Origin: Rhodococcus sp. IEGM 1409
GTDB lineage: Bacteria; Actinomycetota; Actinomycetes; Mycobacteriales; Mycobacteriaceae
Direction of reading: 5' to 3'
Assembly: GCF_030056735.1 (NCBI RefSeq)
Contig: NZ_JASHKN010000012.1
Location: forward strand, 124,001 to 188,000
Length of the DNA stretch: 64,000 bases
The first letter of the stretch is position 1; each line of letters starts with the position of its first letter. The translations under genes and the position numbers were made by a program. Below are positions 43,529 to 60,512 of this stretch, in pieces. The notes below the pieces were generated by a model. That model searched no databases, was not told where the DNA came from, and saw nothing but the letters and a program-made list of their open reading frames with translations.

Positions 43529-43546
43529 GGTGATGCTCCAGTTCCG

Positions 43547-45451: not shown

Positions 45452-46491
45452 GAGACGTCCGTGGGGATCCAGGCCTGCCACGTTCCGGGTGAGGCTTCCA
45501 TCCATTCGTCCACCGCTTCGTCGACGCTCATTCCACCTTCGTCGACATTGACCATCATCGAGTCGAGTGCATCGTCGGTGAGCGTGTACTTGTCCAGGAA
45601 GGCTGCGGCGACGGGATGATTCTCGGCGAAGTCGGCAGAGGCCATCTTGCGGAGACTGATATCTCCCCAGTTGCAGGCATAGGTGGTACCCCAGCACTCG
45701 TCCGAGTAGGCCGGGAACTCCACCCGCGTGAGATCGTACTTTGCCGTCAGAAAGTGTGGGGCCCACATCAATCCGAGGATCGGCTCGCCGCGCTCGTATG
45801 CTCGACTGAATTCGGCACCCAGAGCTGCTTCGGAGCCGGCGAAGGAAATCTCGTAGTTCAGGTCGAGGTTCTCGATACGCTGAACGTCGCCGTACTGCTC
45901 TCCCCAGGCAACGTCGCCCGAAAAGTAGCGACCCTTTGCACCTGGGGTGGCAGCAAAGGCATCCACACAGTCGTTCAAAGCCTCCCAGTTAGGCAGACCT
46001 GGACAAGTGGGTTCGATCCCGCGTGCCGGATCACCTTCGATGACGTAGGTGGGGACGTACCACCCTTCCTCTGCGCTCGGACCGGTGTCACCGAGGTCGA
46101 CCACACTCTTGTCGGTCTCGACGAACTTCTCCAGCAGGTCCTTCGATGTCAGATCCCACAGCTCCATCAGGACCGTGTCATCCGACGATGCCATCGCCGG
46201 GAAGGATGCCGCCCAGTCGACGGGAGCGATCTCGGCCTGGGCGCCCATCTCCTGCAGTACCCGATACGCGAGCCGAGACTGGATCAGTTGACTGGTCCAG
46301 TTGTTCTGCAGCAGAACAACTGGACCCTCTTCGGCAATGGCAGACTTCACGGAATCCGTGACGGCGCCATCGAATGCCGATCCCGATTCCGCGCGTGGGG
46401 CTGCGCACGCCGCAGATAACAGGGTCAGTGAGGTGGCAACAAGTACGATGCCATTTCTCACGATGCGCGGTCGCCGTTCTTTCTTCAACAC
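45448..46491 (-). CDS. Lipoprotein substrate-binding protein, OpuAC/ProX type
   Basis: About 347 residues with a lipoprotein signal (LTLLSAAC) and an OpuAC-type periplasmic fold. Many Trp and Tyr residues (NNWTSQ, PVDWAASF, MELWDL, EEGWYVPTY, GLMWAPHF) suit the aromatic cage that binds quaternary ammonium groups such as betaine or choline. GTG at 46491 is preferred because AAAGGA lies just before it; an ATG at 46506 adds five residues. Two palindromes lie upstream. The actual substrate cannot be told from sequence. Confidence 0.88.
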   Translation of the reverse strand: MLKKERRPRIVRNGIVLVATSLTLLSAACAAPRAESGSAFDGAVTDSVKSAIAEEGPVVLLQNNWTSQLIQSRLAYRVLQEMGAQAEIAPVDWAASFPAMASSDDTVLMELWDLTSKDLLEKFVETDKSVVDLGDTGPSAEEGWYVPTYVIEGDPARGIEPTCPGLPNWEALNDCVDAFAATPGAKGRYFSGDVAWGEQYGDVQRIENLDLNYEISFAGSEAALGAEFSRAYERGEPILGLMWAPHFLTAKYDLTRVEFPAYSDECWGTTYACNWGDISLRKMASADFAENHPVAAAFLDKYTLTDDALDSMMVNVDEGGMSVDEAVDEWMEASPGTWQAWIPTDVS

Positions 46492-46540
46492 AGCGGATCC
46501 TTTCATGTGGTGCCGTGCTCACACCGACGAAGAGCTAGCG

Positions 46541-46567
46541 TGAAACAGCGTCCACGCTTGCGTTTCA
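46541..46567. promoter_or_regulatory. Inverted repeat with TGAAAC/GTTTCA ends
   Basis: TGAAAC-AGCGT-CC-ACGCT-TGC-GTTTCA. The inner five-base arms are perfect, and the outer TGAAAC/GTTTCA arms pair with three extra bases on one side. The same TGAAAC-type end is seen in the 53814-53852 dyad. It is about 50 bases upstream of the binding-protein gene. Confidence 0.5.
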
Positions 46568-46605
46568 GCCTGATTACGGGGATGTCACCTATGGGGCAGG
46601 GCTGA

Positions 46606-46623
46606 GATTAACTAGAGTTAATC
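46606..46623. promoter_or_regulatory. 18-base perfect palindrome, candidate operator
   Basis: GATTAACTAGAGTTAATC, with eight-base arms and a two-base centre. It lies 115 bases upstream of the importer operon start. A transcription factor site is likely; the factor is unknown. Confidence 0.6.
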
Positions 46624-46856
46624 ATTGTCACCTGTTATGAAACGCTCTATTCGTGTCGTTCAGATTACCACCGAATCAGATCTCCGTGACATGTCGCTCC
46701 ATATATACAGGCTTGAAGCGTCTTACACACCACAATGGCAGAATTTTCACCTACAAACGACCGAAATATCCGGATCAAAATTTCTCTTGTCATTCAACAA
46801 TGATTCATAACATTCGCCACACCTTCACAGCGAGACACCAAAGGACGGACAGGCAC

Positions 46857-48083
46857 TTAGCGGCAAATCCAGTCCGCCATGACGTCCGCCAGCGCCTCGG
46901 CGCCCCTGTTGCAGTCGTCGGCTTCAGCGAACTCGTCGGGTGAATGGGACACGCCAGTGGGGTTGCGGACGAACATCATTGCGGTAGGGACCTTCGCCGA
47001 CAAGATTCCCGCGTCGTGACCGGCAGCGGTCGGGAGAACGGGGATGTCGCCAAGGTGAGCAAGGGAGCGCCGCAACCGTTCACGGGTCGACTGCGGAAAC
47101 TCGACAATCGGCGTCACCGACTCAGCGTCGACCTCGAGGCCTATACCGTCTGCGGCCGCGTAGGCCTGCGCCTCGGCAGTGATCTGATCCACGAGCTTGG
47201 TGAGTGTTTCCTCGTCGGCTGCGCGGGCATCCAACCACGCCCGCACTTCAGACGGAATAGCATTGGCGCCGTTGGGAAGAACTCGAATTTTCCCGAACGT
47301 CGCGACGGCATCGTGCAACTCCGCGGCCGAGCGGGCGGTGTGGACCGACGACGCGAATGCGAGCATCGGGTCGCGGCGGTCGACGAGGCGGGTGGCGCCG
47401 GCGTGGTTAGCCTCGCCGGAGAACACGAACTGCCAACGACCGTGCGGCCAGATCGACGAAGCGACGGCGACGGGGCGCTCGATCAGGTCGAGGGCGCGTC
47501 CCTGCTCGACGTGCAGTTCGACGTATACCCCGACACGATCGACAAGATCAGGATCCTCTCCGAGATGGCCTGGGTCACGGCCTGCTCTCACCAGCGCCTC
47601 GGCGAGGGTGATGCCGTCGTTGTCCCGCAGCGCCAAGGCGCGGCCCGGCGCCAATACCCCGGTGGACAGTTGCGAGCCGACGCAGGCGACACCGAAACGT
47701 GCACCCTCCTCGTCCGAGAATGCCGTGACCGCGACGGGACGTGTCGGCTCGATCCCCCGCGCACGCACGATGTCGATCGCGGCAAACGCCGATACCACGC
47801 CCAGCGGGCCGTCGTAGGCACCCCCGTCGGGTACCGAGTCGAGGTGAGATCCGGTCACGAACGCATCCCGGGGATCGCCGTCCCACCCCTCGGGCATCCA
47901 CCAGGCCCAGAGGTTGCCGTTCCGATCCTCCTCGACCGTCATACCGCGCGAGCACGCACAGTCCGAAAACCACTCGCGCAGTGTCATGTCAGCGTCGTTC
48001 CACGCGAATCTTCGGTATCCACGAGTCGACTTGTGCTGTCCCACATCGAGGGTGGTCGCCCACAGTGAATCGAAGGAGGTCAT
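46857..48083 (-). CDS. M20-family amidohydrolase (N-carbamoyl amino acid/allantoate type)
   Basis: 408 residues, M20 zinc peptidase fold. TGSHLDSVPDGGAYDGPLGV, FSDEEGARFGV, ELHVEQGRAL and the late TAAGHDAG carry the metal ligands. This pattern fits N-carbamoyl-L-amino-acid hydrolase or allantoate amidohydrolase, which release ammonia. In this amine cluster it might free nitrogen from an N-carbamoyl or ureido compound such as N-carbamoylsarcosine-like substrates; that is inference. The ATG at 48083 follows GAGGG. Confidence 0.86.
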   Translation of the reverse strand: MTSFDSLWATTLDVGQHKSTRGYRRFAWNDADMTLREWFSDCACSRGMTVEEDRNGNLWAWWMPEGWDGDPRDAFVTGSHLDSVPDGGAYDGPLGVVSAFAAIDIVRARGIEPTRPVAVTAFSDEEGARFGVACVGSQLSTGVLAPGRALALRDNDGITLAEALVRAGRDPGHLGEDPDLVDRVGVYVELHVEQGRALDLIERPVAVASSIWPHGRWQFVFSGEANHAGATRLVDRRDPMLAFASSVHTARSAAELHDAVATFGKIRVLPNGANAIPSEVRAWLDARAADEETLTKLVDQITAEAQAYAAADGIGLEVDAESVTPIVEFPQSTRERLRRSLAHLGDIPVLPTAAGHDAGILSAKVPTAMMFVRNPTGVSHSPDEFAEADDCNRGAEALADVMADWICR

Positions 48084-48209
48084 GTTCTCGGCCCTCTACT
48101 AGTGATGCCGGACGTCAGTCCGCGTGATTGTCGGGGTACACAGGAATAGCGAGGAAGTTGGCGGACGACGATGCCATCACTCCACTGAGGCACTTCGCGC
48201 CCGGGCTAC

Positions 48210-49526
48210 CTACATGGCGCCGGGAATCCAGGTCGTCCCGGCCAGGGGGACTCGGGCCATCGCGGATGCCTCGACGGTGAGGGCGACGAGGTCCTCGGGT
48301 TCGAGGTTGCGAAGGTGCGATTTGCCGCAGGCGCGGGCCAGAGTCTGCGCTTCCATGGTCAATACCCGCAGGTAGTTCGCGAGCCTGCGGCCGCCCTCGA
48401 CCGGGTCGAGGTTCTTCGACAATTCCGGATCCTGCGTGGTGATCCCGGCGGGATCCCTGCCCGCCTGGAAGTCGTCATAGAATCCGGCCGCCGAGCCGAG
48501 CTCTTCGTACTGCTCGGCATAGCGAGGGCTGTTGTCGCCCAATGCGATCAGGGCTGCGGTACCGATTGCGACTGCGTCCGCACCGAGGGCCATCGCCTTC
48601 GCGACGTCGGCACCGCTGCGGATGCCGCCGGACACGATCAGCTGAACCTTCCGGTGCACTCCAAGCTCCTGGAGTGCCTGGACCGCCTGTGGAATCGCGG
48701 CCAGCGTCGGGATACCGACGTGCTCGATGAACACGTCCTGAGTGGCGGCCGTACCACCCTGCATACCGTCGACCACGATGACGTCTGCGCCGGCCTTGAC
48801 TGCGAGCTTCACGTCGTAATACGTGCGGGTGGCGCCGACTTTGATGTAGATCGGCTTCTCCCAGTTGGTGATCTCACGCAGTTCGATGATCTTGATCGCG
48901 AGGTCGTCGGGGCCGGTCCAGTCGGGGTGTCGGCAAGCCGACCGCTGGTCGACGCCCATCGGTAGGGTGCGCATCCCGGCGACACGCTCGGTGATCTTCT
49001 GGCCCAACAGCATTCCGCCACCACCGGGCTTGGCACCCTGACCGAGGACGATCTCGATCGCGTCGGCCTTACGCAGATCGTCCGGGTTCATCCCGTACCG
49101 CGACGGTAGGTACTGGTACACCAGGTTCTTCGACTGCCCGCGCTCCTCGGGGGTCATGCCACCGTCACCGGTGGTCGTGGACGTGCCGACCTCACTGGCA
49201 CCGCGACCGAGTGCTTCTTTCGCCTGCCCGGACAGTGCACCGAAGCTCATGCCGGCGATGGTGATCGGAATATCGAGGTGCAGCGGAAACTTTGCGTTGC
49301 GGTCGCCGAGCACGACGTCGGTGTCGCACTTCTCGCGGTAGCCCTCCAACGGGTACCGAGACATCGAGGCGCCGAGGAACAACAGGTCGTCGAAATGGGG
49401 CAGCTTTCGCTTGGCGCCCCAGCCACGAATATCGTAAATACCTGTCTCAGCGGCCCGCTGGATCTCGGAGATAACGCCGCGGTCGAACGTCGCCGATTCG
49501 CGTAGGGCCGGGTTCGGTGTAGTCAT
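48210..49526 (-). CDS. FMN glutamate-synthase-like subunit (MgsC/GlxD type) lacking Fe-S cysteines
   Basis: 438 residues, the FMN domain of glutamate synthase as a separate protein. It has ITIAGMSFGALSGQAKEALG, GEGAKPGG-type GQGAKPGGGGMLLGQKIT, and SGGIRSGADVAKAMALGADA. The segment FYDDFQAG-RDPAGITTQDPEL (about 349-369; 48420-48482) aligns with the usual C-x5-C-x4-C-P-x-GI-x-TQ motif but has none of those Cys. With the GXGXG and amidotransferase subunits it resembles N-methylglutamate synthase. It is 11 bases downstream of the GXGXG gene. Confidence 0.88.
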   Translation of the reverse strand: MTTPNPALRESATFDRGVISEIQRAAETGIYDIRGWGAKRKLPHFDDLLFLGASMSRYPLEGYREKCDTDVVLGDRNAKFPLHLDIPITIAGMSFGALSGQAKEALGRGASEVGTSTTTGDGGMTPEERGQSKNLVYQYLPSRYGMNPDDLRKADAIEIVLGQGAKPGGGGMLLGQKITERVAGMRTLPMGVDQRSACRHPDWTGPDDLAIKIIELREITNWEKPIYIKVGATRTYYDVKLAVKAGADVIVVDGMQGGTAATQDVFIEHVGIPTLAAIPQAVQALQELGVHRKVQLIVSGGIRSGADVAKAMALGADAVAIGTAALIALGDNSPRYAEQYEELGSAAGFYDDFQAGRDPAGITTQDPELSKNLDPVEGGRRLANYLRVLTMEAQTLARACGKSHLRNLEPEDLVALTVEASAMARVPLAGTTWIPGAM

Positions 49527-49536
49527 GACGGTTCTC

Positions 49537-50253
49537 CTAGTACGCGCTGGCGTTGTCGACGTGGAAGTTATAGAGCTGGCGGGCCGAGCCGTAACGCGTG
49601 AACTCGGACGGGTCGACATCGAAACCCGCCGCTGCGAGCAGCTCCCGAAGTTCCGTCAGGTGCTCCTCACGCATCTCTTTCTTGATGCAGTCGGCGCCGA
49701 GGGAGGCGACGGTGCCGCGCACGTAGATACGTGCCTCGTACAGAGAGTCGCCGAGGGCCTCCCCCGCATCCCCAAGGACCACAAGACGTCCGGCCTGACC
49801 CATGAATGCGGACATGTGCCCGATGTTGCCGCCGACGACGATGTCGACGCCCTTCATCGAAATACCGCAACGCGCAGCGGCATTGCCGTCGATCACGAGC
49901 AATCCGCCGTGCGCCGTTGCGCCTGCCGACTGTGACGCATCGCCCTTGACGTGGACGATGCCCGACATCATGTTCTCGGCGACCCCCACCCCGGCGTTGC
50001 CGGTGACCGTGACGGTGGCCTGCTGGTTCATGCCGGCGCAGTAGTAGCCGACGTGCCCGTCGATGGTGACGTCGATGCCGGAATCGAGACCGCAGGCGAG
50101 CGCATGCGCACCCTGGGGTCCAGTGATGGTGACCGACTTCGGGGCCGCCGGTGAGGTGAGTTGCTCGTTGACGGCACGGATGCTCGACGTCGCAAGGTCC
50201 AGGACGGTCAAGGCCGTCGTCGTGATCGTCTCAGGGGTGGCTAGCGGTGCCAT
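49537..50253 (-). CDS. GXGXG domain subunit (MgsB/GlxC type)
   Basis: 238 residues. The right-handed helix of repeats typical of the glutamate synthase GXGXG domain is clear (GVGVAENMMSGIVHVKGDA, GGNIGHMSAFMGQAGRLVVLG). In the full enzyme it links the amidotransferase and FMN domains. The ATG at 50253 overlaps the upstream stop by 13 bases, behind GAAGAGGTG. Confidence 0.88.
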   Translation of the reverse strand: MAPLATPETITTTALTVLDLATSSIRAVNEQLTSPAAPKSVTITGPQGAHALACGLDSGIDVTIDGHVGYYCAGMNQQATVTVTGNAGVGVAENMMSGIVHVKGDASQSAGATAHGGLLVIDGNAAARCGISMKGVDIVVGGNIGHMSAFMGQAGRLVVLGDAGEALGDSLYEARIYVRGTVASLGADCIKKEMREEHLTELRELLAAAGFDVDPSEFTRYGSARQLYNFHVDNASAY

Positions 50254-51137
50254 ACGTACACCTCTTCCGGTTCGGGCTCGAAGATTCGGGCGTTGTCGAC
50301 GCCGGGCAGGTTGGCCAGGGCGCGGTATTCGGAGGCCATCGCAACCCACTGGTCCGTCTCGGCGATGACGGCGGGCTTACACGAAATGGCGTCGCGGACA
50401 ACTGCAAACGAGTCTGCAGTCGAGACGAGCAGGGTGTAGAAGCCGTCGAAGGTGTCGTTGAGCATCAACAGCGCTTTCTCCAGGTCGACGCCCTCGGCGA
50501 GCTGCTTGGCGACGAACCTCGCCCCGACCTCGGTGTCGTTGGCACTGTCGAACACGACGCCGTCACGTTCGAGCTGATGCTTGATGCTCATGTGATTGGA
50601 GAACGAGCCGTTGTGCACCAGGCACTGGTCGGGGCCGACGGCGAACGGGTGCGATCCCTCGGCGGTCACGGCAGATTCGGTGGCCATGCGAGTGTGAGCA
50701 ACTCCTTGCCAGCCATTCGCTGACGGCAGACCGAACCGGTTCGCCAGGTCGAGCGGATCTCCGACGCCTTTGAGAACGGTTAAGTCGTCGCCGAATCCGA
50801 TGACTCGCGCCGACGGCGCCACGCTGCGCACGGCGGCTGCGAGATCTTCTGGCCCGATTGCTCCGTGCAGGATCGTCGTCGGCGGCAGGTCGATTCCGGT
50901 GATAGCGGTATCGAGTGACGCGGACAGCGTCGCGGCGAGGTCCGCTGCGGGAACGGGGCAGTCGAGCAGCGAAACCGTGGCTTCGCCGATCGGGCACCAG
51001 GTTTGGTCGCCGTAGATGGCCATGCCCGCCGAGTCCGGACCACGGTCACACATCTGACCGAGCATGTCGGTCAGCAGAGCGCCGAGTTGCGGGTAGAGGG
51101 ACGGCTCACGCAAGTGAAGTCCGACGATTCCACACAT
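50241..51137 (-). CDS. Class II glutamine amidotransferase subunit (MgsA/GlxB type)
   Basis: 298 residues starting MCGIVGLHLREP; after removal of Met the Cys is the N-terminal nucleophile. CDRGPDSAGMAIYG, VAHTRMATESAVT, HPFAVGPDQCLVHNGSFSNH and NDTEVGARF are typical class II amidotransferase motifs. In the N-methylglutamate pathway this subunit processes gamma-glutamylmethylamide. The gene is 24 bases downstream of the ligase gene. Confidence 0.9.
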   Translation of the reverse strand: MCGIVGLHLREPSLYPQLGALLTDMLGQMCDRGPDSAGMAIYGDQTWCPIGEATVSLLDCPVPAADLAATLSASLDTAITGIDLPPTTILHGAIGPEDLAAAVRSVAPSARVIGFGDDLTVLKGVGDPLDLANRFGLPSANGWQGVAHTRMATESAVTAEGSHPFAVGPDQCLVHNGSFSNHMSIKHQLERDGVVFDSANDTEVGARFVAKQLAEGVDLEKALLMLNDTFDGFYTLLVSTADSFAVVRDAISCKPAVIAETDQWVAMASEYRALANLPGVDNARIFEPEPEEVYVWHR

Positions 51138-51161
51138 GGAGGTCTCCTTTCGGGAGTTCTG

Positions 51162-52523
51162 TCAGAACGCTGTCAGGTAGTGGTCGAGCTCCCAGGAGGA
51201 GACGGTGTTGTGCCAGGAGAAGAATTCCTCCCGCTTGAGTTTCGCGAAGTACGCGGCGACTCCGGGGCCGACGACGTCCAACGCGCCGCTCACGACCGGA
51301 TCCGATTCCAGCGCGTCCATCGCGTGCAGCAGCGTCATCGGCAGCATGTCGCTGGGGCTGTCGCCTGAACCTGGTGTCCCAGGGTCGAGATTTCGTGCAA
51401 TGCCGTCCAGGCCTGCGGCGATGGTGGCGGCCGCGGCCAGGTAGGGATTGGCCGAGCCGTCACCGCCACGCAGTTCCACACGATTCTTGTCCGGAACCCG
51501 GAGATAGTGAGTGCGGTCGTTCCCACCGTAGGTGGCGTACCGAGGCGACCAGGTGGCACCGCTGGCCGTGGAGGTGGCGCCGGTTCGCTTGTAGGAGTTG
51601 ACAGTCGGCGCGATCACTGCCTGCAGTGCGCATGCATGCTCGAGAATCCCCGCAATGAAGGCATACGCGGTCTTCGACAGTCCGAGTCCCTTGGGGTCCT
51701 CACCATCCGGGAATACCGAACCGATCTCGTTCCACAGCGACAGGTGCATGTGCATACCGGAACCGGTGCGGTCGGTGAAGGGCTTGGGCATGAATGTGGC
51801 CTTCATGCCGCGCTTCTCCGCGATGACCGACAGCAAGTACCGGGCGGTGATCACCCGGTCGGCCGTAGTCATCGCGTCGGCGTAGTCGAAGTTCTGCTCG
51901 AACTGTCCGTTGCCGTCTTCGTGATCGTTTGCGTAGTTGCCCCACCCCAGAGCGTTCATGGCCGTGGACACCTCGGTCAGGTGGTCGTACATACGCGTGA
52001 CGTCGCGGGCGTCGTAACACGGCTGACGGCTGACGTCGGCGGTGTCCGCGGTTGTGAGTGCGCCGTCGCCGGTGCGGTTGACGAGGAAGTACTCGATCTC
52101 GGCGCCGACGTTGACGGACAGGCCGAGTTCGGCCGCCTTCTCGAGCATCGCCTTCAGGATCACCCGCGGCGAGAACGGCCAGGGCTTGCCCTCCACATGC
52201 GGATCGCAGTGCACGATTGCCAGTCCGGCCTTCACGAACGGAATCGGCGTGAACGACGAGACATCGGGTATGGCAACAAGATCGGAGTCCCTGGGCTCCT
52301 GACCCATATGCCCGGCAGCGTAACCGGCGAAGCTCACGCCGTCGTTCTGAAGTTGTTCGACGGCCTCGATCGGGACAAGTTTGGCGCACGGCTTGCCCGA
52401 CAGGGTTACGAAGAGCGCAAGGATGAATGTGGTCTCGGTGTCCCGCGCCACCTCGGATAAAGTCTGCGGCGGCGAGGTGATGAGGGTGGGCGGGGTCAAA
52501 GCGTCAGCGGTGTCGACAGCCAT
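51162..52523 (-). CDS. Glutamine synthetase-family ligase, gamma-glutamylmethylamide synthetase type
   Basis: 453 residues, type III/GmaS-like. The metal and substrate motifs include GAEIEYFLV, NDHEDGNGQFEQNFDYADA, ATFMPKPFTDRTGSGMHMHLSL, NSYKRTG and KNRVELRGGDGSANPYLAAA. It is shorter than GlnA and lacks the adenylylation Tyr loop. Together with the split glutamate-synthase genes downstream it suggests gamma-glutamylmethylamide synthesis from methylamine and glutamate. The alternative is a glutamine synthetase paralogue for ammonia. It is the first of four leftward genes. Confidence 0.85.
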   Translation of the reverse strand: MAVDTADALTPPTLITSPPQTLSEVARDTETTFILALFVTLSGKPCAKLVPIEAVEQLQNDGVSFAGYAAGHMGQEPRDSDLVAIPDVSSFTPIPFVKAGLAIVHCDPHVEGKPWPFSPRVILKAMLEKAAELGLSVNVGAEIEYFLVNRTGDGALTTADTADVSRQPCYDARDVTRMYDHLTEVSTAMNALGWGNYANDHEDGNGQFEQNFDYADAMTTADRVITARYLLSVIAEKRGMKATFMPKPFTDRTGSGMHMHLSLWNEIGSVFPDGEDPKGLGLSKTAYAFIAGILEHACALQAVIAPTVNSYKRTGATSTASGATWSPRYATYGGNDRTHYLRVPDKNRVELRGGDGSANPYLAAAATIAAGLDGIARNLDPGTPGSGDSPSDMLPMTLLHAMDALESDPVVSGALDVVGPGVAAYFAKLKREEFFSWHNTVSSWELDHYLTAF

Positions 52524-52568
52524 GGGGAGCTCCTGAACTGTGGGTCTACGGATGAGTGGGTCTTCGTG

Positions 52569-53762
52569 TCAGCGCATTTCGCCGGCACCCTCGTAGGGGT
52601 ACAGGCTGCGGAGAAGATCACCTTCCTCGAAGCGCGAGTATCGGAAGTCGGACGGCTCGACGTTCGGGAGGGTCGTCTTGCCGTCATCGAGAAGCATGTC
52701 GGCGACGAGGCGCCCGACTGCCGGCGAGATTTTGAAACCATGACCCGAGAATCCGGTGGCCAGGAACAGTCCATCGACCGGCGCGGGACCGATGATGGGG
52801 TTGTAGTCGGGAGTCACGTCGTACGCGCCGACGTAGCTCGAGGTGATCCGAGGGTCCGGCATGTCTGGTAGACGGTTCCCGAGCTTGCCGATGTTCTTCT
52901 CGATGGTGCTGTTGTCTGCCCGGTTGCTGTACTTGTCGGGGTCGATGTACTCGGGCGCCGCGTGGTCACTGTTGCCGACAAGCAGCTCACCATTCGGCTC
53001 ACGGCAGATGTACTGCAATCCCGCAAGATCCGACAGCACCGGCACCTCCGGTGTCGGAGCACCCTGATCGATCAGAACTAGCTGCGCGCGTTGCGCTTTC
53101 ACTGGTATGTCGACGCCGACGCCGGCCCCGAGTTCGGGGGCCCACGGCCCGGTGGCGAGGATGACCTGCTCGGCATGCACTTCGTCACCGTCCGCGAGCG
53201 TCACCCCGTAGACGCGGCCGTCCGCATTCTGCAGAAGCGACGCCACCGGGGTGCTCTGACGGATCTTGACGCCCAACTGGCGGGCCGACGCACCAAATGC
53301 CATCCCGGCCATGTACGCCTCACCACGCCCACCGAGGGGTTCGTAGGCGAAGGCGGCAAAGTCGTCAAGGTGCAACCCCGGCCACAGTTCTGCCATCTTG
53401 TCGTGGCTGATGTAGTCGACGTCGATGCCGAGGCCCTGCATCATCGCGACGTTCGCCTTCAACGGGTCGATGTTGTTCTCGCCGACGCCAACCACGTATC
53501 CACACTGTCGGAATGCCATGTCGTCCCCGAATATCTCGGCGGCTCTGGTGAAGATGTCGATGCCGTACCACGACATCGCCGCCAGCGACGGCGTTCCGTA
53601 GTGGCACCTGACCACACCACTGGACTTACCGGTCATGCCCGAGCACAAGGTGCCACGCTCGAGGACCAAGACATCGGTCTCTCCGCGGTCCGCGAGCGAC
53701 CAGGCGATGGCGAGACCCTCGAGCCCTCCACCGACGATCACGAATTTAGCTGTCTGTGTCAC
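52569..53762 (-). CDS. FAD-dependent amine oxidase, DAO family (sarcosine oxidase/N-methylglutamate dehydrogenase-like)
   Basis: 397 residues. The dinucleotide motif is FVIVGGGLEGLAIAWSLADRG, followed by GKSSGVVRCHYG and, near the end, GLFLATGFSGHGFKISPAVG. This DAO-family group includes sarcosine oxidase beta, glycine oxidase and dimethylglycine oxidase. Beside the ligase and synthase genes a secondary amine such as N-methylglutamate or sarcosine is the likely substrate. No subunits of heterotetrameric sarcosine oxidase or of MgdBCD are present. It is 45 bases upstream of the ligase, so it heads the operon. Confidence 0.84.
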   Translation of the reverse strand: MTQTAKFVIVGGGLEGLAIAWSLADRGETDVLVLERGTLCSGMTGKSSGVVRCHYGTPSLAAMSWYGIDIFTRAAEIFGDDMAFRQCGYVVGVGENNIDPLKANVAMMQGLGIDVDYISHDKMAELWPGLHLDDFAAFAYEPLGGRGEAYMAGMAFGASARQLGVKIRQSTPVASLLQNADGRVYGVTLADGDEVHAEQVILATGPWAPELGAGVGVDIPVKAQRAQLVLIDQGAPTPEVPVLSDLAGLQYICREPNGELLVGNSDHAAPEYIDPDKYSNRADNSTIEKNIGKLGNRLPDMPDPRITSSYVGAYDVTPDYNPIIGPAPVDGLFLATGFSGHGFKISPAVGRLVADMLLDDGKTTLPNVEPSDFRYSRFEEGDLLRSLYPYEGAGEMR

Positions 53763-54096
53763 ATCGTTTCCTTCATTCGGCCGGATGCGTCAGGCTGTCT
53801 CAACTAAGTGCAGTGTTTCATGTCGTGAACCAGCGTTGTTCACTATGAAACATGCCAATGATGTCGGTCACGTTACGGAGACGTTGTTGGCGAATTACCA
53901 ATTCTTAGTCACATAAACATCTTTCGAGCAAATATTGCGCCTCGAGCAGCGCATTTACCGAGGTTCAGGATTGTTAACCTCGCAGAAACCTACAATGTGG
54001 TTTCCTGTTAGTACTTCCGGTTTCACACTGGAAGTTCGGCAAGTGAGCGCCATCCCCACCCATTACTGCTCATCCACCACTTCCACAGGAGAACCC
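53763..54096. other. 334-base divergent control region
   Basis: No gene is seen between the FAD oxidase and cupin genes. It holds the long dyad at 53814-53852 and is AT-rich around 53860-53960. The promoters of both operons must be here. Confidence 0.6.
53814..53852. promoter_or_regulatory. Imperfect inverted repeat between the two amine operons
   Basis: TGTTTCAT-GTC-GTGAAC (53814-53830) pairs with GTTCAC-TATGAAACA (53838-53852) apart from two unpaired bases. The eight-base arms TGTTTCAT/ATGAAACA resemble the ends of the 46541-46567 repeat, which suggests a shared regulator. Confidence 0.6.
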
Positions 54097-54480
54097 ATGA
54101 CCACGACCGACAAGCCCTCAGTCGCCCCGTTTCGCGTCACCGCCGGATTCCACGAGAACCTGCCGCAGATGCCGGTCTCGGAATACCCGGGCACCAAGGG
54201 ATTTATCGACGACGTCTTCTCCAACCCCGGCGGATCGGAGATGTCGGCAGGCTATTTCGAACTGCAGCGCACGGATGCCCCGCTCGACTACTACTACGCC
54301 TACGACGAGATGAAGGTCGTCCTCGAAGGTGAGTTCACCCTGGAGAACCTCGACACCGGCCAGGTCGAGGTCGCGAAGGCGAAGGATGCAATCTTCTTCC
54401 CCACTGGCTCGCGCATCCGCTTCACCACCCCCGACCGCGCACTGGCCTACTTCGTCGGCCACCGTTCCTTCGCTGCCTGA
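54097..54480 (+). CDS. Cupin-fold protein (EutQ-like)
   Basis: 127 residues, single cupin domain. YAYDEMKVVLEGEFTLEN and DAIFFPTGSRIRFTT match the two cupin motifs, but the His-rich metal site is weak, as in EutQ-type proteins. It is the first gene of the rightward demethylase operon. The ATG at 54097 follows AGGAGAA. It may bind an amine intermediate; the role is unknown. Confidence 0.75.
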   Translation: MTTTDKPSVAPFRVTAGFHENLPQMPVSEYPGTKGFIDDVFSNPGGSEMSAGYFELQRTDAPLDYYYAYDEMKVVLEGEFTLENLDTGQVEVAKAKDAIFFPTGSRIRFTTPDRALAYFVGHRSFAA

Positions 54481-54487
54481 TACCGCC

Positions 54488-55033
54488 ATGGCGGTATCGA
54501 TGAAGGCGACCAGTGTTCCGCGGTGGGGATCCGACTACTCGGCCGTCGATAACCTGGCAGCCGGCTCTGCCGTCACCCGCTACGTGCTCATCTCGGACAG
54601 CTCGGTCGGCCCACCGGCCATACTCGAGTTGATCGAGCGTGTGGCCCCTATCCCTCTTCGAACGTTGCGCGTCGACGACGTGGACGGATCGGGGCTCGGG
54701 ATGCTCGACGAACTGCTGTCCGATGCGCGCATCGGATGGCGGTTCGTCGTGGCGGGTTCCGAGCAGACTGTGGGCACCGTGCGAACTCGGTTGATCTCCG
54801 CGGGCGCGTTGCCCGCGGAGATTGCCGCGGTGATCAGCGACCACACGACTGATATCCGGGTGCGCGACGTGTTTTGCGCGCATTGCCATACGACGTCACG
54901 CTTGGTGCCGGTAGCCATCGGCGATCGGACACAGTGCGCGGGTTGTTCGGCCGAACTCACCGTCTACTACCACTTCTCCCGGCGCCACAGTGCGTACCTG
55001 GGATATCGCGCCGATGCGGAGGAACTGCCATGA
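54488..55033 (+). CDS. DmmA-like subunit of a dimethylamine monooxygenase-type system
   Basis: 181 residues. The N-terminal part is Ala/Leu rich; near the end CAHC and CAGC (about 138-162) form a zinc-ribbon-like Cys set. Small proteins of this kind accompany DUF3445 demethylases and their reductases. The start is uncertain: ATG at 54488 has no ribosome site, and ATG at 54500 is an alternative. Its stop overlaps the reductase start (ATGA). Confidence 0.72.
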   Translation: MAVSMKATSVPRWGSDYSAVDNLAAGSAVTRYVLISDSSVGPPAILELIERVAPIPLRTLRVDDVDGSGLGMLDELLSDARIGWRFVVAGSEQTVGTVRTRLISAGALPAEIAAVISDHTTDIRVRDVFCAHCHTTSRLVPVAIGDRTQCAGCSAELTVYYHFSRRHSAYLGYRADAEELP

Positions 55034-56007
55034 CCATGACCCTCGAGACAGTTGCAGGCGAGAACATCACAGGCGATCTGATTCTGACTGTCCGCGAAGC
55101 ACGGTTGTTGTGCTCGGGGATCCGCCAGATTGTGCTTGCGGATCCGGCGGGCCGCGCCCTGCCGTCATTCACCCCGGGCAGTCATATCGCGGTCAACTGG
55201 GTCGAGGGTCGCCGCAATTCCTACTCACTTACCGGTCCCTCGATCGAGCCTGACCACTATGCGATCTCGGTCCGGCTCGACGAGAACGGCCACGGCGGTT
55301 CACGCTGGGTTCACGGCCTCCATCCGGGGCAGCGAATCCGGGTGAGCCTTCCACGGAGTGCATTCGCACCCGTGCTCAACGCTCGGCATCACCTGCTGAT
55401 CGCGGGTGGAATCGGCGTCACACCGATACTGTCGCACGTCCGGGCCGCACTTGAATGGGGTCGTTCGTTCGAAGTGATCTATTCCTTCCGTGACCAGTTG
55501 GGGGCGCACGCCAACGAGCTGGCTACGCTCTGCGGCGACCGGATGATCACGGTATCGACGCCCGCCGAGCTCGCGAAGTGCCTGCTTGCCAAGCTGGCGG
55601 ATCAGCCACTCGGATCCCACGTCTACACCTGTGGTCCCGCACCGATGATCTCGGCAGTGGCCGAGTGGGCCCGCAATTGCGGCTGGCCGCCGGATCGGGT
55701 GCACGCGGAGGCCTTCGGAGCGGGCCCCCTACCCGAAGGAGCGCCCTTCGCCGTCAAACTCGGACGCACCGGAATGCTCGTTTCGGTGCCCTCGGGCACG
55801 AGCCTTCTCGAAGCCCTGCTGGACAAGGGAATCAACGTCCCGAACCTCTGCCGCCAAGGCGTGTGCGGCGAATGCCGGCTGAGCGTGCGCGGCGGCCGGA
55901 TCGAACACCGCGACCTGTTCCTCACCGATGAGGAGAAGGCAGCTGGAGATTCGATCATGCCGTGCGTATCACGTTCCGCAGGAGACAAATTGGAGATCGA
56001 GCTTTGA
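55030..56007 (+). CDS. Ferredoxin reductase-type electron-transfer protein, FMN/NAD and [2Fe-2S] (VanB-like)
   Basis: 325 residues in the order FMN/FAD domain (about 10-105, RRNSYSLTG), NAD domain (HHLLIAGGIGVTPILSH; YTCGPAPM), and a C-terminal plant-type ferredoxin domain with LCRQGVCGECRLSV and a late Cys (MPCVSRSAGD). This PDR/VanB arrangement passes electrons from NAD(P)H to an oxygenase. Its partner here is probably the DUF3445 protein. ATGA overlap at 55030-55033; its stop overlaps the next gene's TTG. Confidence 0.9.
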   Translation: MTMTLETVAGENITGDLILTVREARLLCSGIRQIVLADPAGRALPSFTPGSHIAVNWVEGRRNSYSLTGPSIEPDHYAISVRLDENGHGGSRWVHGLHPGQRIRVSLPRSAFAPVLNARHHLLIAGGIGVTPILSHVRAALEWGRSFEVIYSFRDQLGAHANELATLCGDRMITVSTPAELAKCLLAKLADQPLGSHVYTCGPAPMISAVAEWARNCGWPPDRVHAEAFGAGPLPEGAPFAVKLGRTGMLVSVPSGTSLLEALLDKGINVPNLCRQGVCGECRLSVRGGRIEHRDLFLTDEEKAAGDSIMPCVSRSAGDKLEIEL

Positions 56008-57002
56008 CATCCATCGACGCGCGTGCCGACCACATCGCACACTTTCCGTTCCCCTTCCCCCGCGACCAGTACCGCTACAGCACCAACGTCGAGCCGGCCG
56101 GAAACTCCACTGAGACCGCGGCCGGAAGCTGGGGTGAGAACCGCATCGCCATCGATGCCCACTACCACCGAGAGCTTTCCGAGCGCGCGCAGATCCTGGC
56201 CGAGGACTCGTCGCGGCACCAGTGTCTGCCCCACATGGTCCCCGCTGCCTGGGACGCGATGCTCACCCTGATGCGCACCCTCGCCGACGAATACCCCGAC
56301 ACCATGACTCTCGAAAAACGCTGCGACGAGTGGTTGTGGAAGAACGACATCCTCGGGATCGAACACAGCTTCGTGTTTGGTGACCTCGACACGTTGCCTG
56401 CGCCGCCGCTGGCATACATCTGCGGCCAAATCCAGGAGGACGTCGTGCTCCTCGATCAGCGTGAGGGCGCGTTGTGGGGCGACGCCGGACTGGTGACGTT
56501 CGCGGCAGACTGGTCTTTCGGATTCGACGTGGGTATGAGCTTCCTCGAGATCCACGGCCCCGTCCCACGGGTTCACAGCGAGAAAATAATCACCCGCGCA
56601 CACAACTTCCTGATGCGACTCGGGCCCGGCCAAAGTTACCGGCGCACCAATTGGACGCTGAACGTAGACGGCAAACTCGACACGTCGACCGAGACCTATC
56701 CTGTGTGGGGGAAGGACCGACGCACCCTCGCCGACGGTCCGCTCGCCGAGGTTGGGGATCGTCTTTTCCTCAGAACCGAAGTGCAGCATCTGATCAGGCT
56801 CCCTCACTCCGGCGCCGTCATGTTCCTGATTCGGACGTATCTGCTCTCGTTCCGAGACGTAGCCTCCGTTCCGGAATGGGGAGCGCGGCTGTACAAGGTT
56901 CTGGAGGATCTTCCGGTGGATATGGCCGAATACAAGGGTATCAACCGAATCCGTGAACCCGGCATGAAATGGCTTCTGACACATGGGGGTGTCGAGACAT
57001 GA
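56004..57002 (+). CDS. DUF3445 haem-dependent oxidative N-demethylase
   Basis: 332 residues. The segments WSFGFDVGMSFLEIHGPVP and SYRRTNWTLN are the conserved features I associate with DUF3445 haem oxidative N-demethylases. Such enzymes remove a methyl group from dimethylamine or related secondary amines and release formaldehyde. The start is a TTG at 56004 whose TTGA overlaps the upstream stop; the first ATG lies far inside the upstream gene and is rejected. Assignment to dimethylamine versus another N-methyl compound is not possible from sequence. Confidence 0.82.
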   Translation: MTSIDARADHIAHFPFPFPRDQYRYSTNVEPAGNSTETAAGSWGENRIAIDAHYHRELSERAQILAEDSSRHQCLPHMVPAAWDAMLTLMRTLADEYPDTMTLEKRCDEWLWKNDILGIEHSFVFGDLDTLPAPPLAYICGQIQEDVVLLDQREGALWGDAGLVTFAADWSFGFDVGMSFLEIHGPVPRVHSEKIITRAHNFLMRLGPGQSYRRTNWTLNVDGKLDTSTETYPVWGKDRRTLADGPLAEVGDRLFLRTEVQHLIRLPHSGAVMFLIRTYLLSFRDVASVPEWGARLYKVLEDLPVDMAEYKGINRIREPGMKWLLTHGGVET

Positions 57003-57571
57003 CGCTGACCGACAGGCAACTCCGGCGGGCGGCGCCCCGGAGCGATCAGTCACTCGACCTCGCACGCGCAACGGTCTCCGTGATCGCCCGCAGTGGCTTG
57101 CGCGGTCTGACCATCGCAGCCGTCGCCGTGGAGGCCGGAACCGACGAGGAAGTTCTTCGTAGCTTCGGATCAACCGATGCCCTCGTCGACGTCGCCCTCC
57201 GCTACGCGCTCGACAAGAGCGCGAGCATCTTCGCCGACATCACGCCACGCTCGTCGCTCGACAACTTCGTCGAGCACCTCACCGACCTCGTCGCCCGAGA
57301 CCCCGACCTTCAGGTCTTCCAGTACGAGCTGATGCTCGAATCCCGGCGGACGCCGCGACTCGATCCGCACGTGAAACTGCTGTACGCCACCTACCTCGAG
57401 GCGACTTCCCAGGCGCTGACCCGTCTGGGCATCACCGCTGACGAAGATCTGACCTTGCTGGTCTACTCGGCCATCGAAGGATTCATCATGCACCAACTCG
57501 TCGCCAAGGATCGCCTGGCCACGGAGCGCGCGATCGAACGCCTACGCCGAATCCTCTCCACCACAAGATAA
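56999..57571 (+). CDS. TetR-family regulator of the demethylase operon
   Basis: 190 residues. An N-terminal helix-turn-helix (about 15-60, ATVSVIARSGLRGLTIAAVA) and a helical ligand domain are seen. The recognition helix differs from usual TetR sequences. The ATG overlaps the demethylase stop (ATGA), so the repressor is made with the enzymes. It may bind the 53814-53852 dyad (inference). Confidence 0.8.
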   Translation: MTLTDRQLRRAAPRSDQSLDLARATVSVIARSGLRGLTIAAVAVEAGTDEEVLRSFGSTDALVDVALRYALDKSASIFADITPRSSLDNFVEHLTDLVARDPDLQVFQYELMLESRRTPRLDPHVKLLYATYLEATSQALTRLGITADEDLTLLVYSAIEGFIMHQLVAKDRLATERAIERLRRILSTTR

Positions 57572-57631
57572 TTCGTGTAACGGCATCGATCCGGATATCG
57601 CGTCGTACGTACACGTCCGGCACTCCAGGCT

Positions 57632-58225
57632 TCATTGGCGATCGAGGATTTCAGCCTTCAAGATCAACGCGTGCCCGGACATCGTGACAGCTCCCCGCTC
57701 TACCAGCAGGCAATCACCCGGCCCGGCGGTCCCGAGGTCCGTCGATAACCGCCCGTCGAGGACCAGCATGAGTACTGCCACTCGTTCGGCGGCATTCAGC
57801 TCGAAGAGAAGGTCGATATCCATGATCTCGACAGCCGCCGCAGTGCTCGACCGCTCAACCATCACGTTGAACGCCTCCGTCGGCCCGGCCGCAATACAAT
57901 CGGGTCCACTTTCTCCGGCGAAGGATGTCGGGCTCAGTCGCGGTATCACGGTCGGGGAAGCGTCGAAGTCGAGTGACACCGGGTACGGGCCGATCACGGT
58001 AAATATCCGATCCACTCCGAAAAACGATGAAAACGTCGAATTCGCTTCGAGCGAAGCAACACTGAACCGCCACCGGGAGTCAGCACCGGTCGCGATCTCC
58101 GCGGTGCTCCCCAGCCCGTTTGCCCACCGGGTGATCCGGCGATCCGCGCAGGGGATGATGCGCGCAGTTCGATCCGCAAGCAAGGTTTCTCCCTCAATTA
58201 TCGTGCCTACTGTTGAGATACTCAT
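57632..58225 (-). CDS. HutD/Ves-family cupin protein
   Basis: 197 residues. RRITRWANGLGSTAEIATGADSRWRFSVASL is the HutD/Ves core with a double-stranded beta-helix. HutD limits histidine-use in other bacteria; here no hut genes are present. It is convergent with the TetR gene and divergent from amt. A small-molecule sensor role in nitrogen supply is only a guess. Confidence 0.78.
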   Translation of the reverse strand: MSISTVGTIIEGETLLADRTARIIPCADRRITRWANGLGSTAEIATGADSRWRFSVASLEANSTFSSFFGVDRIFTVIGPYPVSLDFDASPTVIPRLSPTSFAGESGPDCIAAGPTEAFNVMVERSSTAAAVEIMDIDLLFELNAAERVAVLMLVLDGRLSTDLGTAGPGDCLLVERGAVTMSGHALILKAEILDRQ

Positions 58226-58416
58226 TCAACTGTTGTTACGCAGTAGGTTGCACTTGATCTTCCGATCTGCCCGGAATGTAATCGGTGCTAGTTAACCTAT
58301 TTGTGACCGAGACGCCCGCTTTTGCAACCTAATCTTTGGTTTACTCATGCTACATAGCGATTCCCAATGGCGAACAATCCTGTGTCACGCCACACTCCAC
58401 CGAAGGGGACGACCTT

Positions 58417-59772
58417 ATGAATGAAGCAGTCGCTGCAGCCGACACCGCCTGGATTCTGGCGGCTTTCATGGCCGTGAGCCTCATGGTGCCGGGACTAGCC
58501 ATGTTCTACGGCGGAATGGTCAGCGCCCGCAACACATTGAACATGGCCATGATGACGTTCGGCGCTTTCGCGGTAGTCGGGGTGCTGTGGATCCTGTTCG
58601 GTTACTCCGCAGTCCTCGGCAATTCCCTCGGCGGGGCTGGTCTTCTCGGTGATCCCCTCGAGTTCTTCGGCTCGAGCTCGCTCCTGCAGGCGTCGACCGA
58701 ACCCGGATTGCCACCCGCACTGATTTCGGGATTCCAGTTGCTGTTCGCGGCAATCACAGTCGCCCTCATCTCCGGCGCGCTGGCCGACCGGATGAAGTTC
58801 GGCGCCTGGATGGCGTTCGCCGGCCTGTGGGCCACGTTTGTCTACTTCCCCATCGCACACTGGGTTTTCGCGTTCGACTCCGAGGACGGCTCCGTAACCG
58901 GTGGATGGATAGCAAACACTCTCGGCGCCATCGACTTTGCGGGCGGCACCGCAGTCCACATCAACGCTGGCGTCGCGGCTCTCGCTCTCGTGTTGGTGCT
59001 CGGCACCCGCAAGACATTTCCCGCCGCGCCCCGGCCGCACAGCCTTCCGCTGACGATGCTCGGAGCCGGCATCCTGATGTTCGGTTGGTTCGGGTTCAAC
59101 GGCGGATCCGCCCTGTCCGCCGGCCTCAGCGCTTCCGTCGTCATTCTCAACACCGTCGCGGCAGCCTGCGCCGGAATCTGCGCCTGGCTGATAATGGAGA
59201 AATTGCGCGAAGGTCGCGCCACCTCATTGGGTGCTGCGTCCGGTCTGATCGCGGCGCTCGTCGCGATCACCCCGGCATGTGGCGCGGTCTCCCCCCTCGG
59301 CGCGCTGGCGATCGGAGCAATCGCGGGCGCAGTGTGTTGCCTGGCGGTATCGGTGAAATACCGACTCGGATATGACGATGCACTCGACGTGGTGGGAGTT
59401 CACCTCGTCGGCGGTGTCTTGGGTACGGTCCTGATCGGCTTCATCGCAGACCCGGCGGCACCCAGCGGTGCGGCAGGACTTCTCTACGGTGGCGGCTTCG
59501 ATATTCTCTGGCGCCAATGTGTGGCTGTGGCAGCAGTTCTCGCATACTGCTTCATCGTGACAGCGATAATCGCCTTGGTGTTGAAGAAGGTGATGGGAAT
59601 TCGGGCCGATCGCGACAGTGAGTACGACGGACTCGACGTTTCCGTCCACGGGGAAACGGCATACGTCCTCGACTCCGCGCCCTTCACAGGGCATACCCAC
59701 GACGCCTCCGACGCGGTCCTGGGAGCCGAGCGAATCACAAATAGTGCGGCGGAAAATACGGCGAAAGCCTGA
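58417..59772 (+). CDS. amt: Ammonium transporter (Amt)
   Basis: 451 residues with 11 membrane helices. MVPGLAMFYGGMVSARN, GALADRMKFGAWMAF, HWVFAFDSEDGSV, DFAGGTAVHINAGVAAL and HLVGGVLGTVLIGF carry the conserved residues, including the twin His (HxN...DVVGVHLVGG). A long C-terminal tail is acidic. It moves ammonium or methylammonium. The ATG at 58417 follows GAAGGGGA. No glnK/glnD genes follow, unlike the main actinobacterial amt operon, so this looks like a pathway-specific copy. Confidence 0.93.
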   Translation: MNEAVAAADTAWILAAFMAVSLMVPGLAMFYGGMVSARNTLNMAMMTFGAFAVVGVLWILFGYSAVLGNSLGGAGLLGDPLEFFGSSSLLQASTEPGLPPALISGFQLLFAAITVALISGALADRMKFGAWMAFAGLWATFVYFPIAHWVFAFDSEDGSVTGGWIANTLGAIDFAGGTAVHINAGVAALALVLVLGTRKTFPAAPRPHSLPLTMLGAGILMFGWFGFNGGSALSAGLSASVVILNTVAAACAGICAWLIMEKLREGRATSLGAASGLIAALVAITPACGAVSPLGALAIGAIAGAVCCLAVSVKYRLGYDDALDVVGVHLVGGVLGTVLIGFIADPAAPSGAAGLLYGGGFDILWRQCVAVAAVLAYCFIVTAIIALVLKKVMGIRADRDSEYDGLDVSVHGETAYVLDSAPFTGHTHDASDAVLGAERITNSAAENTAKA

Positions 59773-59791
59773 TACCTACAATCGACAACAG

Positions 59792-59834
59792 CAGTGGCCT
59801 TCCCCGCGGCAATCCGCCCAGGGCAGGGCCACTG
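59792..59834. terminator. Terminator hairpin between amt and the XRE gene
   Basis: CAGTGGCC (59792-59799) pairs with GGCCACTG (59827-59834). It is 19 bases after amt and precedes the end of the leftward regulator gene. Confidence 0.65.
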
Positions 59835-59837
59835 TCG

Positions 59838-60512
59838 TCATTCTTCGTGATGGTCGGGATAAGCCGTAACGGCGAGGAATCGGATGGGCAGCCGAACCAG
59901 ATCATTGGGACCGTGCAGCCCTTCACCATCAAGCAACAGTGAATCACCGGGTCGCAGTGTGTATTCCGCTTCACCGTGCCCGTAGACCATCACTCCTTCG
60001 AGCATGTAGAGCAATTCGGTGCCGGCGTGCTGAAACAAGGGAAACGTCTCGCTGGCGTCGGTGAGCGTGACCAGAACCGGCTCGAGTCTCTTGTGCTGCC
60101 CCCGGAGGGCGCCGAGAAGTTCGTAGTGGTGGCCCACCCGGGTTCCCCGCCCGACAATGACGGCGCCATGACCCGATTCGACGTACACGGCATCGCGGGC
60201 GGTATCCGCGCCGCGGAACAACGAAGTCACGGGCACGTCGAGTCCGGCTGCCAACCGCGCCAGCGTGGAAAGACTGCACGAGGTCTGCGAGTTCTCGATC
60301 TTCGACAGCATCGCCTTCGAGATGCCGACCTTCGTTGCCATGTCCCCAACGGAGAGGCCACTGGCCTTGCGTAGAGCACGGACCTGCTTCGCGATCACCT
60401 TCTCGAGGTCTTGCCCCGTAGGCGTATCGGAGGGCACCTCGCGCTCGACAGGCGCCGGGTCGCCGGTATCACGATGAACTGAGGAGGAACTTGATCGATT
60501 CGGCACCTGCAC
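59838..60512 (-). CDS. XRE-family regulator with cupin domain
   Basis: 224 residues. A helix-turn-helix (about 39-95: RALRKASGLSVGDMATKVGIS then MLSKIENSQTSCSLSTLARLA) is joined to a C-terminal cupin (about 145-215: FQHAGTELLYMLEGVMVYG and LRPGDSLLLDGEG). Proteins of this design (PuuR type) control polyamine and amine catabolism. Here it probably controls part of the amine island. The start at 60512 (MQVPNRSSS) is uncertain within 30 poorly conserved residues. Confidence 0.85.
   Translation of the reverse strand: MQVPNRSSSSSVHRDTGDPAPVEREVPSDTPTGQDLEKVIAKQVRALRKASGLSVGDMATKVGISKAMLSKIENSQTSCSLSTLARLAAGLDVPVTSLFRGADTARDAVYVESGHGAVIVGRGTRVGHHYELLGALRGQHKRLEPVLVTLTDASETFPLFQHAGTELLYMLEGVMVYGHGEAEYTLRPGDSLLLDGEGLHGPNDLVRLPIRFLAVTAYPDHHEE

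Follow-up and report, generated by a model that had tools for sequence, protein, structure and literature searches.

Methylated amines are a common nitrogen source. DmmABC has been demonstrated in Ruegeria, and dmmD (GcvT) is needed for growth of R. pomeroyi on trimethylamine but not for dimethylamine turnover (available text of PMC5520151). GmaS together with MgsABC was proposed for actinobacteria as early as 2015, in Mycobacterium strains (available text of PMC5023230). In histidine utilisation, HutF and HutG take formiminoglutamate through formylglutamate to formate and glutamate (accessible part of PMC12772324). Here we describe a gene block of Rhodococcus sp. IEGM 1409 that has counterparts in these systems and lies in a stretch of 64,000 nucleotides (the window; contig NZ_JASHKN010000012.1, positions 124,001 to 188,000). 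From sequence and gene context we read it as a probable dimethylamine/methylamine nitrogen-scavenging pathway, in which a single-chain DAO-type flavoprotein would produce N-formylglutamate and an M20-family hydrolase would turn this into glutamate and formate.

In the proposed scheme DmmABC would convert dimethylamine to methylamine and formaldehyde, as its characterised homologues do. By homology, GmaS would couple methylamine to glutamate, and MgsABC would form N-methylglutamate from gamma-glutamylmethylamide and 2-oxoglutarate. The DAO-type flavoprotein (hereafter DAO), replacing MgdABCD, would then oxidise N-methylglutamate, probably twice (N-CH3 to N-CH2OH to N-CHO), a step suggested by its gene context. 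The M20 protein would deformylate the resulting N-formylglutamate to glutamate and formate, with an XRE-cupin protein as the likely regulator. N-formylglutamate and its deformylase would take the place of the classical tetrahydrofolate and PurU, and formate would be the end product of both. We also favour, a little more cautiously, the wider idea of a folate-free methylamine branch, in which one flavoprotein makes N-formylglutamate via the carbinolamine, M20 (actinobacteria) or HutG (betaproteobacteria) frees formate, and free formaldehyde at the methylamine step is avoided. Formaldehyde is still expected from the demethylase reaction.

Ligase, synthase and demethylase

The window genes between 42410 and 61844 were scanned with Pfam and NCBIfam profiles. 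Together with the open reading frames (ORFs), these place every gene named in a preliminary description of the window at about the position given there (Table 1). The reaction order proposed in that description, demethylation of a secondary amine, GmaS-type ligation and transfer by a split MgsABC, is backed by sequence and context. Among solved structures the ligase scored best with 7cql (386 bits) and 9qur, a glutamate-methylamine ligase (354 bits), and the best glutamine synthetase (GS) reached 198 bits. We equated 7cql with RhGmaS, since all residues given in the available text of PMC7948447 fit it at one offset. The window ligase retains 10 of the 11 residues named there for this methylamine-specific relative, the exception being Q175 (A198 in the window protein). 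Among those kept are the catalytic residues Asp177, Glu186 and Arg312. Both residues standing where GS has its ammonia-site Asp and flap Glu are kept too (Ala66 and Trp325 in the window ligase, as in GmaS).

The synthase has the three subunits of MgsABC (amidotransferase with Cys2, GXGXG protein and FMN Glu_synthase domain). MgsA retains Cys2 and shares the N-terminus MCGIVGL with classical MgsA, and MgsC is 78% identical to MgsC of the classical Sox-linked loci L147 and L150. Like these two alphaproteobacterial proteins, it lacks the 3Fe-4S cysteines of glutamate synthase. The betaproteobacterial MgsC of locus L148 keeps four cysteines at the 3Fe-4S site. DmmA, the 2Fe-2S reductase and the alpha subunit of the haem-dependent oxidative N-demethylase (HODM) adjoin one another, as expected of DmmABC, and a dmmD match was found neither in the DAO loci described below nor among the scanned window genes.

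A search with DAO gave 87 relatives, of which 80 named actinobacterial loci were kept, and every window gene was sought in them by tblastn; the resulting counts are lower bounds, as contig ends cut many loci short. The grouping, for which the preliminary description had proposed a synteny search across actinobacteria, proved conserved: gmaS, mgsB and mgsC were each found at 62 loci, mgsA at 61, XRE-cupin at 58, M20 at 48 and Amt at 35. Rarer companions were dmmC (23), the EutQ-like cupin (22), HutD (21) and TetR (3). No other regulator of the module is as conserved as the XRE-cupin gene, which has matches of 41-48% in proteobacterial gmaS clusters. The order gmaS-mgsA-mgsB-mgsC-DAO is repeated in Frankia, Acrocarpospora, Nocardioides, a Mycobacterium plasmid and others. 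A plasmid of Candidatus Mycobacterium methanotrophicum (L146, 7688-13182) carries glnT, MgsABC and DAO near an integrase.

We also searched 121 genomes of the same family, evenly drawn, with thresholds of E <=1e-120 for MgsC and E <=1e-80 for DAO and M20. MgsC occurred in 30 and DAO in 31, with both together in 29. DmmC was present in 21 of the 30 MgsC genomes and in one of the remaining 91. Two HODM alpha genes stand close together in seven loci (L092, L093, L096, L109, L112, L116, L123), one 41-46% and the other 59-67% identical to the window copy.

The flavoprotein and the M20 hydrolase

The nearest named relatives of DAO are in Rhodococcus sp. IEGM 1379 (98%) and in R. jostii and R. opacus (95-96%). 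As had been described, it stands alone in place of the MgdBCD partners. SoxD (MgdB), the small subunit that marks MgdABCD, had no match in the host genome (58 contigs, given as 100% complete), and the same search found it in 13 of the 121 genomes but in only five of the 30 with MgsC. SoxA, SoxD and SoxG were found at none of the 80 DAO loci. The preliminary description had also thought that the pathway might be a variant undescribed for the genus. Sequence and context support the single-chain DAO in place of MgdBCD, but GmaS-MgsABC was already known in actinobacteria and the variant spans many actinobacterial genera and some betaproteobacteria.

DAO scores 138 bits against TIGR01373 (cut-off 529) and 98.6 bits against the monomeric sarcosine oxidase profile TIGR01377 (cut-off 479.65). 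We rejected it as an MgdA orthologue on the first of these scores and on its long branches to three MgdA-like SoxB proteins, where joins are weak and the tree carries a long-branch warning. Its predicted structure (pLDDT 89) has its best matches in L-proline dehydrogenase beta, SoxB and dimethylglycine dehydrogenase. Across 27 DAOs Arg52 never varies and Lys344 hardly does, and they align with SoxB residues (one Arg, one Lys) that bind the substrate carboxylate in sarcosine oxidases. This conservation would fit an N-methyl amino acid substrate, without proving N-methylglutamate. M20-linked DAOs form one group (100/100) in a tree of 14 chosen rows, and comparison of sites between them and other DAOs gave lineage-like differences only. 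In L172, L173 and L174, which were outside the tree, a second DAO (about 53% identical to the window DAO) adjoins M20; the two genes overlap in L172 and L174, and a flavin reductase lies just upstream in L172. G042 is the only MgsC genome without a window-type DAO; there an MSOX-like DAO stands between XRE and mgsC, with SoxD on another contig. Another oxidase type adjoins mgsC in L145 (16384-18610) and L181 (7581-8672; MSOX-like).

The M20 protein and HutD, to which no role had been given, point to an unusual N-formylglutamate step. The M20 protein (pLDDT 92 in the predicted structure) is closest among solved structures to 3n5f, an N-carbamoyl-L-amino acid hydrolase, and it matches PF01546 and not the HutG family PF05013. 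M20 relatives occupied 20 places in 19 of the 121 genomes, 16 near DAO and four directly before hutF. Those near DAO were of two types: eight (79-100% identity) within about 5.2 kb of it, and eight (49-52%) only 41-238 bp away on the same strand. The four others (G006, G007, G009, G028; 63-77%) lie with their ends 8-80 bp upstream of hutF, and no further hutF gene was found among the 121 genomes. Gene orders there were HutU-M20-HutF-HutI (two), M20-HutF-HutD (one) and M20-HutF (one). By locus, the first order stands in L177, L178 and Nonomuraea L182, and M20-HutF in L179, L180 and Arthrobacter L183. A plasmid collection searched at E 1e-70 held just two M20 relatives, those of the Nonomuraea and Arthrobacter records, both preceding hutF. 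All six M20 relatives away from DAO therefore stand directly before hutF, the position of HutG. A HutG-family match (PF05013, E 0.001) was absent from three of the four hutF genomes. Because M20 precedes hutF directly where the HutG family is mostly missing, its histidine-operon context strongly supports M20 as a putative N-formylglutamate deformylase. In the M20 tree (L069, with a stop codon within its range, was excluded from the alignment) the hut M20s branch around the mgs-linked A rows and that of L183 falls inside the DAO-linked B group, so that one enzyme type seems to have served the hut and DAO contexts more than once.

DAO is accompanied by a deformylase in a second phylum. In the plasmid collection DAO matched 33 records at E 1e-30. 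Betaproteobacteria contributed at least 11, of which we viewed seven (Aquabacterium, four Paraburkholderia, Cupriavidus and Burkholderia; H43, H44, H46 and H48 were outside this set). Their DAOs are 32-35% identical to that of the window. Their neighbours include hutG (6/7) or a related N-formylglutamate amidohydrolase (1/7, P. phymatum), a HutD-like match (7/7), ETF (6/7) and gmaS (5/7). Of three betaproteobacterial hydrolases scored against TIGR02017, two pass. Two unrelated deformylase families, M20 in actinobacteria and HutG in betaproteobacteria, thus accompany DAO, and HutD occurs with both. Among actinobacterial loci HutD was found in 21 of 48 with M20 and in none of 32 without it (p 3e-6, the loci being related). 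HutD accompanies whichever deformylase is present, and it perhaps senses or governs N-formylglutamate. Five classical Sox-type loci (L147, L150, L158, L167, L171) had purU in four cases and neither hutG nor HutD in any. Two haloarchaeal DAO loci that we viewed had no hutG or related hydrolase, HutD, ETF or gmaS.

Histidine breakdown does not account for these genes in the host. Its genome carries hutU and hutI, an aromatic-amino-acid-lyase gene and, directly after hutI, a formimidoylglutamase gene (TIGR01227, 298 bits, cut-off 229). No hutF match was found in it at E 1e-60. The histidine route should therefore lead to formamide and make no N-formylglutamate, and we ruled out a role of M20 and HutD in it. 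The window M20 is the only M20 match in the genome at E 1e-80. N-methylglutamate is the most plausible remaining source of N-formylglutamate.

Weighing the alternatives

The most serious competitor, which we consider unlikely but not negligible, is that DAO is an ordinary N-methylglutamate oxidase giving glutamate and formaldehyde, with M20 and HutD only clearing N-formylglutamate formed by formaldehyde side reactions or over-oxidation. Several observations lean this way and weigh against the N-formylglutamate step. Characterised relatives of the DAO fold, among them sarcosine and dimethylglycine oxidases, carry out two-electron amine oxidations, the formaldehyde being set free or handed to folate. 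On Streptomyces plasmid L145, another DAO-type oxidase is followed by S-(hydroxymethyl)mycothiol dehydrogenase, a formaldehyde route. At E 1e-80, M20 is missing from 13 of the 31 DAO genomes, and two more (G006 and G028) have the hut copy only, leaving 15 of 31 without M20 near DAO; in G009, G039 and G058, M20 stands by a second DAO and not by the mgs-linked one. No M20 was in view at R. ruber-group and Frankia-like loci. As these M20-less DAO clades lie directly beside mgsC, the formyl step is not general for DAO, and formaldehyde release or a different hydrolase may apply at such loci. The deformylase assignment has its own difficulties: the M20 protein exceeds the cut-off of NF006770 (372 bits) and so takes the NCBIfam name allantoate amidohydrolase, a function that its context leads us to doubt; among the four hutF genomes, G006 carries a full FGase as well; the P. 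phymatum hydrolase is under the HutG cut-off (116 vs 279); and the host has a partial FGase match on contig C22 (75/219 positions, 37.7 bits, cut-off 28.9). Finally, the co-occurrence lists for the 121 genomes were compiled by hand from tables, so that another E-value could shift a genome, and kinship among the 121 genomes, 80 loci and seven betaproteobacterial records makes p-values overstate independence and the statistics descriptive. Against an ordinary oxidase, M20 or HutG together with HutD beside DAO in two phyla would be much for a repair enzyme; the 49-52% type of M20 adjoins a same-strand DAO in all eight places; and mscR, the sole formaldehyde-oxidising gene queried, matched one of the 80 DAO loci, at 35%.

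It is improbable that ligase, synthase and oxidase serve some other amine (ethylamine, isopropylamine, ethanolamine or similar) via an N-alkylglutamate while the demethylase set feeds a different route. The module is complete without dmmC, which was found in just 20 of 65 DAO loci holding gmaS or mgsC. This is opposed by the methylamine-enzyme residues retained in GmaS, by the concentration of DmmC in MgsC genomes and by the N-methyl group that an N-formyl product needs. Most remote of all is a nitrogen-starvation GS/glutamate synthase for ammonia, which we rejected on the GmaS residue comparison: the M. smegmatis homologues msmeg_6259-6264 are so annotated and GlnR-activated (available text of PMC4222082), several of them respond to nitrogen limitation (available text of PMC4617892) and Amt adjoins, but the ammonia site is replaced as in GmaS and DAO, M20 and the demethylase would be left without a role.

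The favoured pathway, in which DAO forms N-formylglutamate for M20, would have several consequences if true. Surveys of the N-methylglutamate pathway based on mgd would miss a route in Rhodococcus, Nocardia, Gordonia, Williamsia, Dietzia, Mycolicibacterium and Burkholderiales. One M20 family, currently annotated as allantoate amidohydrolase, would gain its real substrate, and the role of HutD could be studied in a second pathway. A DAO-fold enzyme would carry out a four-electron oxidation of N-methyl to N-formyl, and N-formylglutamate, otherwise known from histidine breakdown, would be a methylamine intermediate too.

Gene inventory and comparison with known systems

Table 1. Genes of the block and the adjoining importer, in window coordinates
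Feature	Position	Strand	Support
Quaternary-amine-type importer (OpuAC, permease, ATPase), betaine/choline type	42410-46506	-	Pfam, NCBIfam
M20 hydrolase, putative N-formyl-L-glutamate deformylase, in place of the non-orthologous HutG	46857..48083	-	PF01546; NF006770 647.7 bits
MgsC-like FMN glutamate-synthase domain	ORF 48210-49619, likely start 49526	-	PF01645 311.6 bits
MgsB-like GXGXG subunit	ORF 49537-50349, likely start 50253	-	PF01493
MgsA-like class II amidotransferase with Cys2, MCGIVGL start	50241..51137	-	PF13522/PF13537
GmaS, gamma-glutamylmethylamide synthetase (type III GS-like)	51162..52523	-	TIGR03105 619 bits, cut-off 470
Single-chain DAO-type flavoprotein, proposed N-methylglutamate oxidoreductase	52569..53762	-	
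EutQ-like cupin, mostly occurring with dmm genes	54097..54480	+	PF06249
DmmA	54488..55033	+	NF041259 105 bits, cut-off 60
DmmB-like NAD/2Fe-2S reductase	55030..56007	+	PF22290 + PF00111
HODM alpha (DmmC)	56004..57002	+	PF11927 222 bits; 5lte 303 bits
TetR regulator, local to close relatives	56999..57571	+	PF17940
HutD-family protein	57632..58225	-	PF05962; PDB 5fcc HutD
Ammonium/methylammonium transporter Amt	58417..59772	+	PF00909 380 bits
XRE-cupin regulator	59838..60512	-	PF01381 + PF07883

The importer had been counted with the block from 46448 onwards. Its genes are real, but they extend further to the left and are no part of the conserved set: OpuAC and permease had no tblastn match at any of the 80 DAO loci, and we ruled the importer out as a module member. 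A GlnR-like triple box (GTGAC-n6-GTAAT-n6-GAAAC, one mismatch) lies at 46562-46588, about 55 bp ahead of the opuAC start. It is the best of four window matches and the only one with a single mismatch, hinting that the importer may be under its own nitrogen control. We did not adopt a conserved GlnR box upstream of DAO: a loose motif occurs in 8 of 81 upstream stretches, against 0.9% in controls, and in the nearest relative, L065, the site of the window is absent. The right flank opens with a YrbE1A-like Mce permease. A single ORF at 60603-61844 with two TetR_N stretches encodes a tandem TetR protein ahead of this Mce operon.

We found no literature joining N-formylglutamate and N-methylglutamate; subscription journals were mostly outside coverage, so this is no proof of novelty. 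With the N-methylglutamate pathway of Rhizobium, Methylobacterium and Roseobacter the window shares GmaS, the three split Mgs subunits and the XRE-cupin protein, and in the Rhizobium cluster L150 dmmABC lies in the same cluster, as it does here. The window differs in having no MgdABCD match and no adjoining PurU or GlxA, and instead carries a single-chain DAO, M20 and HutD. Compared with DmmDABC/HODM (Lidbury 2017, available text of PMC5520151), DmmA, the Fe-S reductase and haem alpha are common to both, but dmmD was found at 0/80 loci and window-type blocks add a EutQ-like cupin. The clusters of methylotrophic Mycobacterium (McTaggart 2015, PMC5023230) also have Gma, MgsA-C and a nearby EutQ-like cupin; in the available text of that paper a separate MgdABCD is assigned elsewhere in the genomes and no N-formylglutamate step is named. 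Five-step histidine utilisation, HutF then HutG, shares the N-formylglutamate deformylase and HutD, and relatives of M20 stand in hutF operons. The difference is that N-formylglutamate in the window pathway would stem from methylamine and not from histidine.

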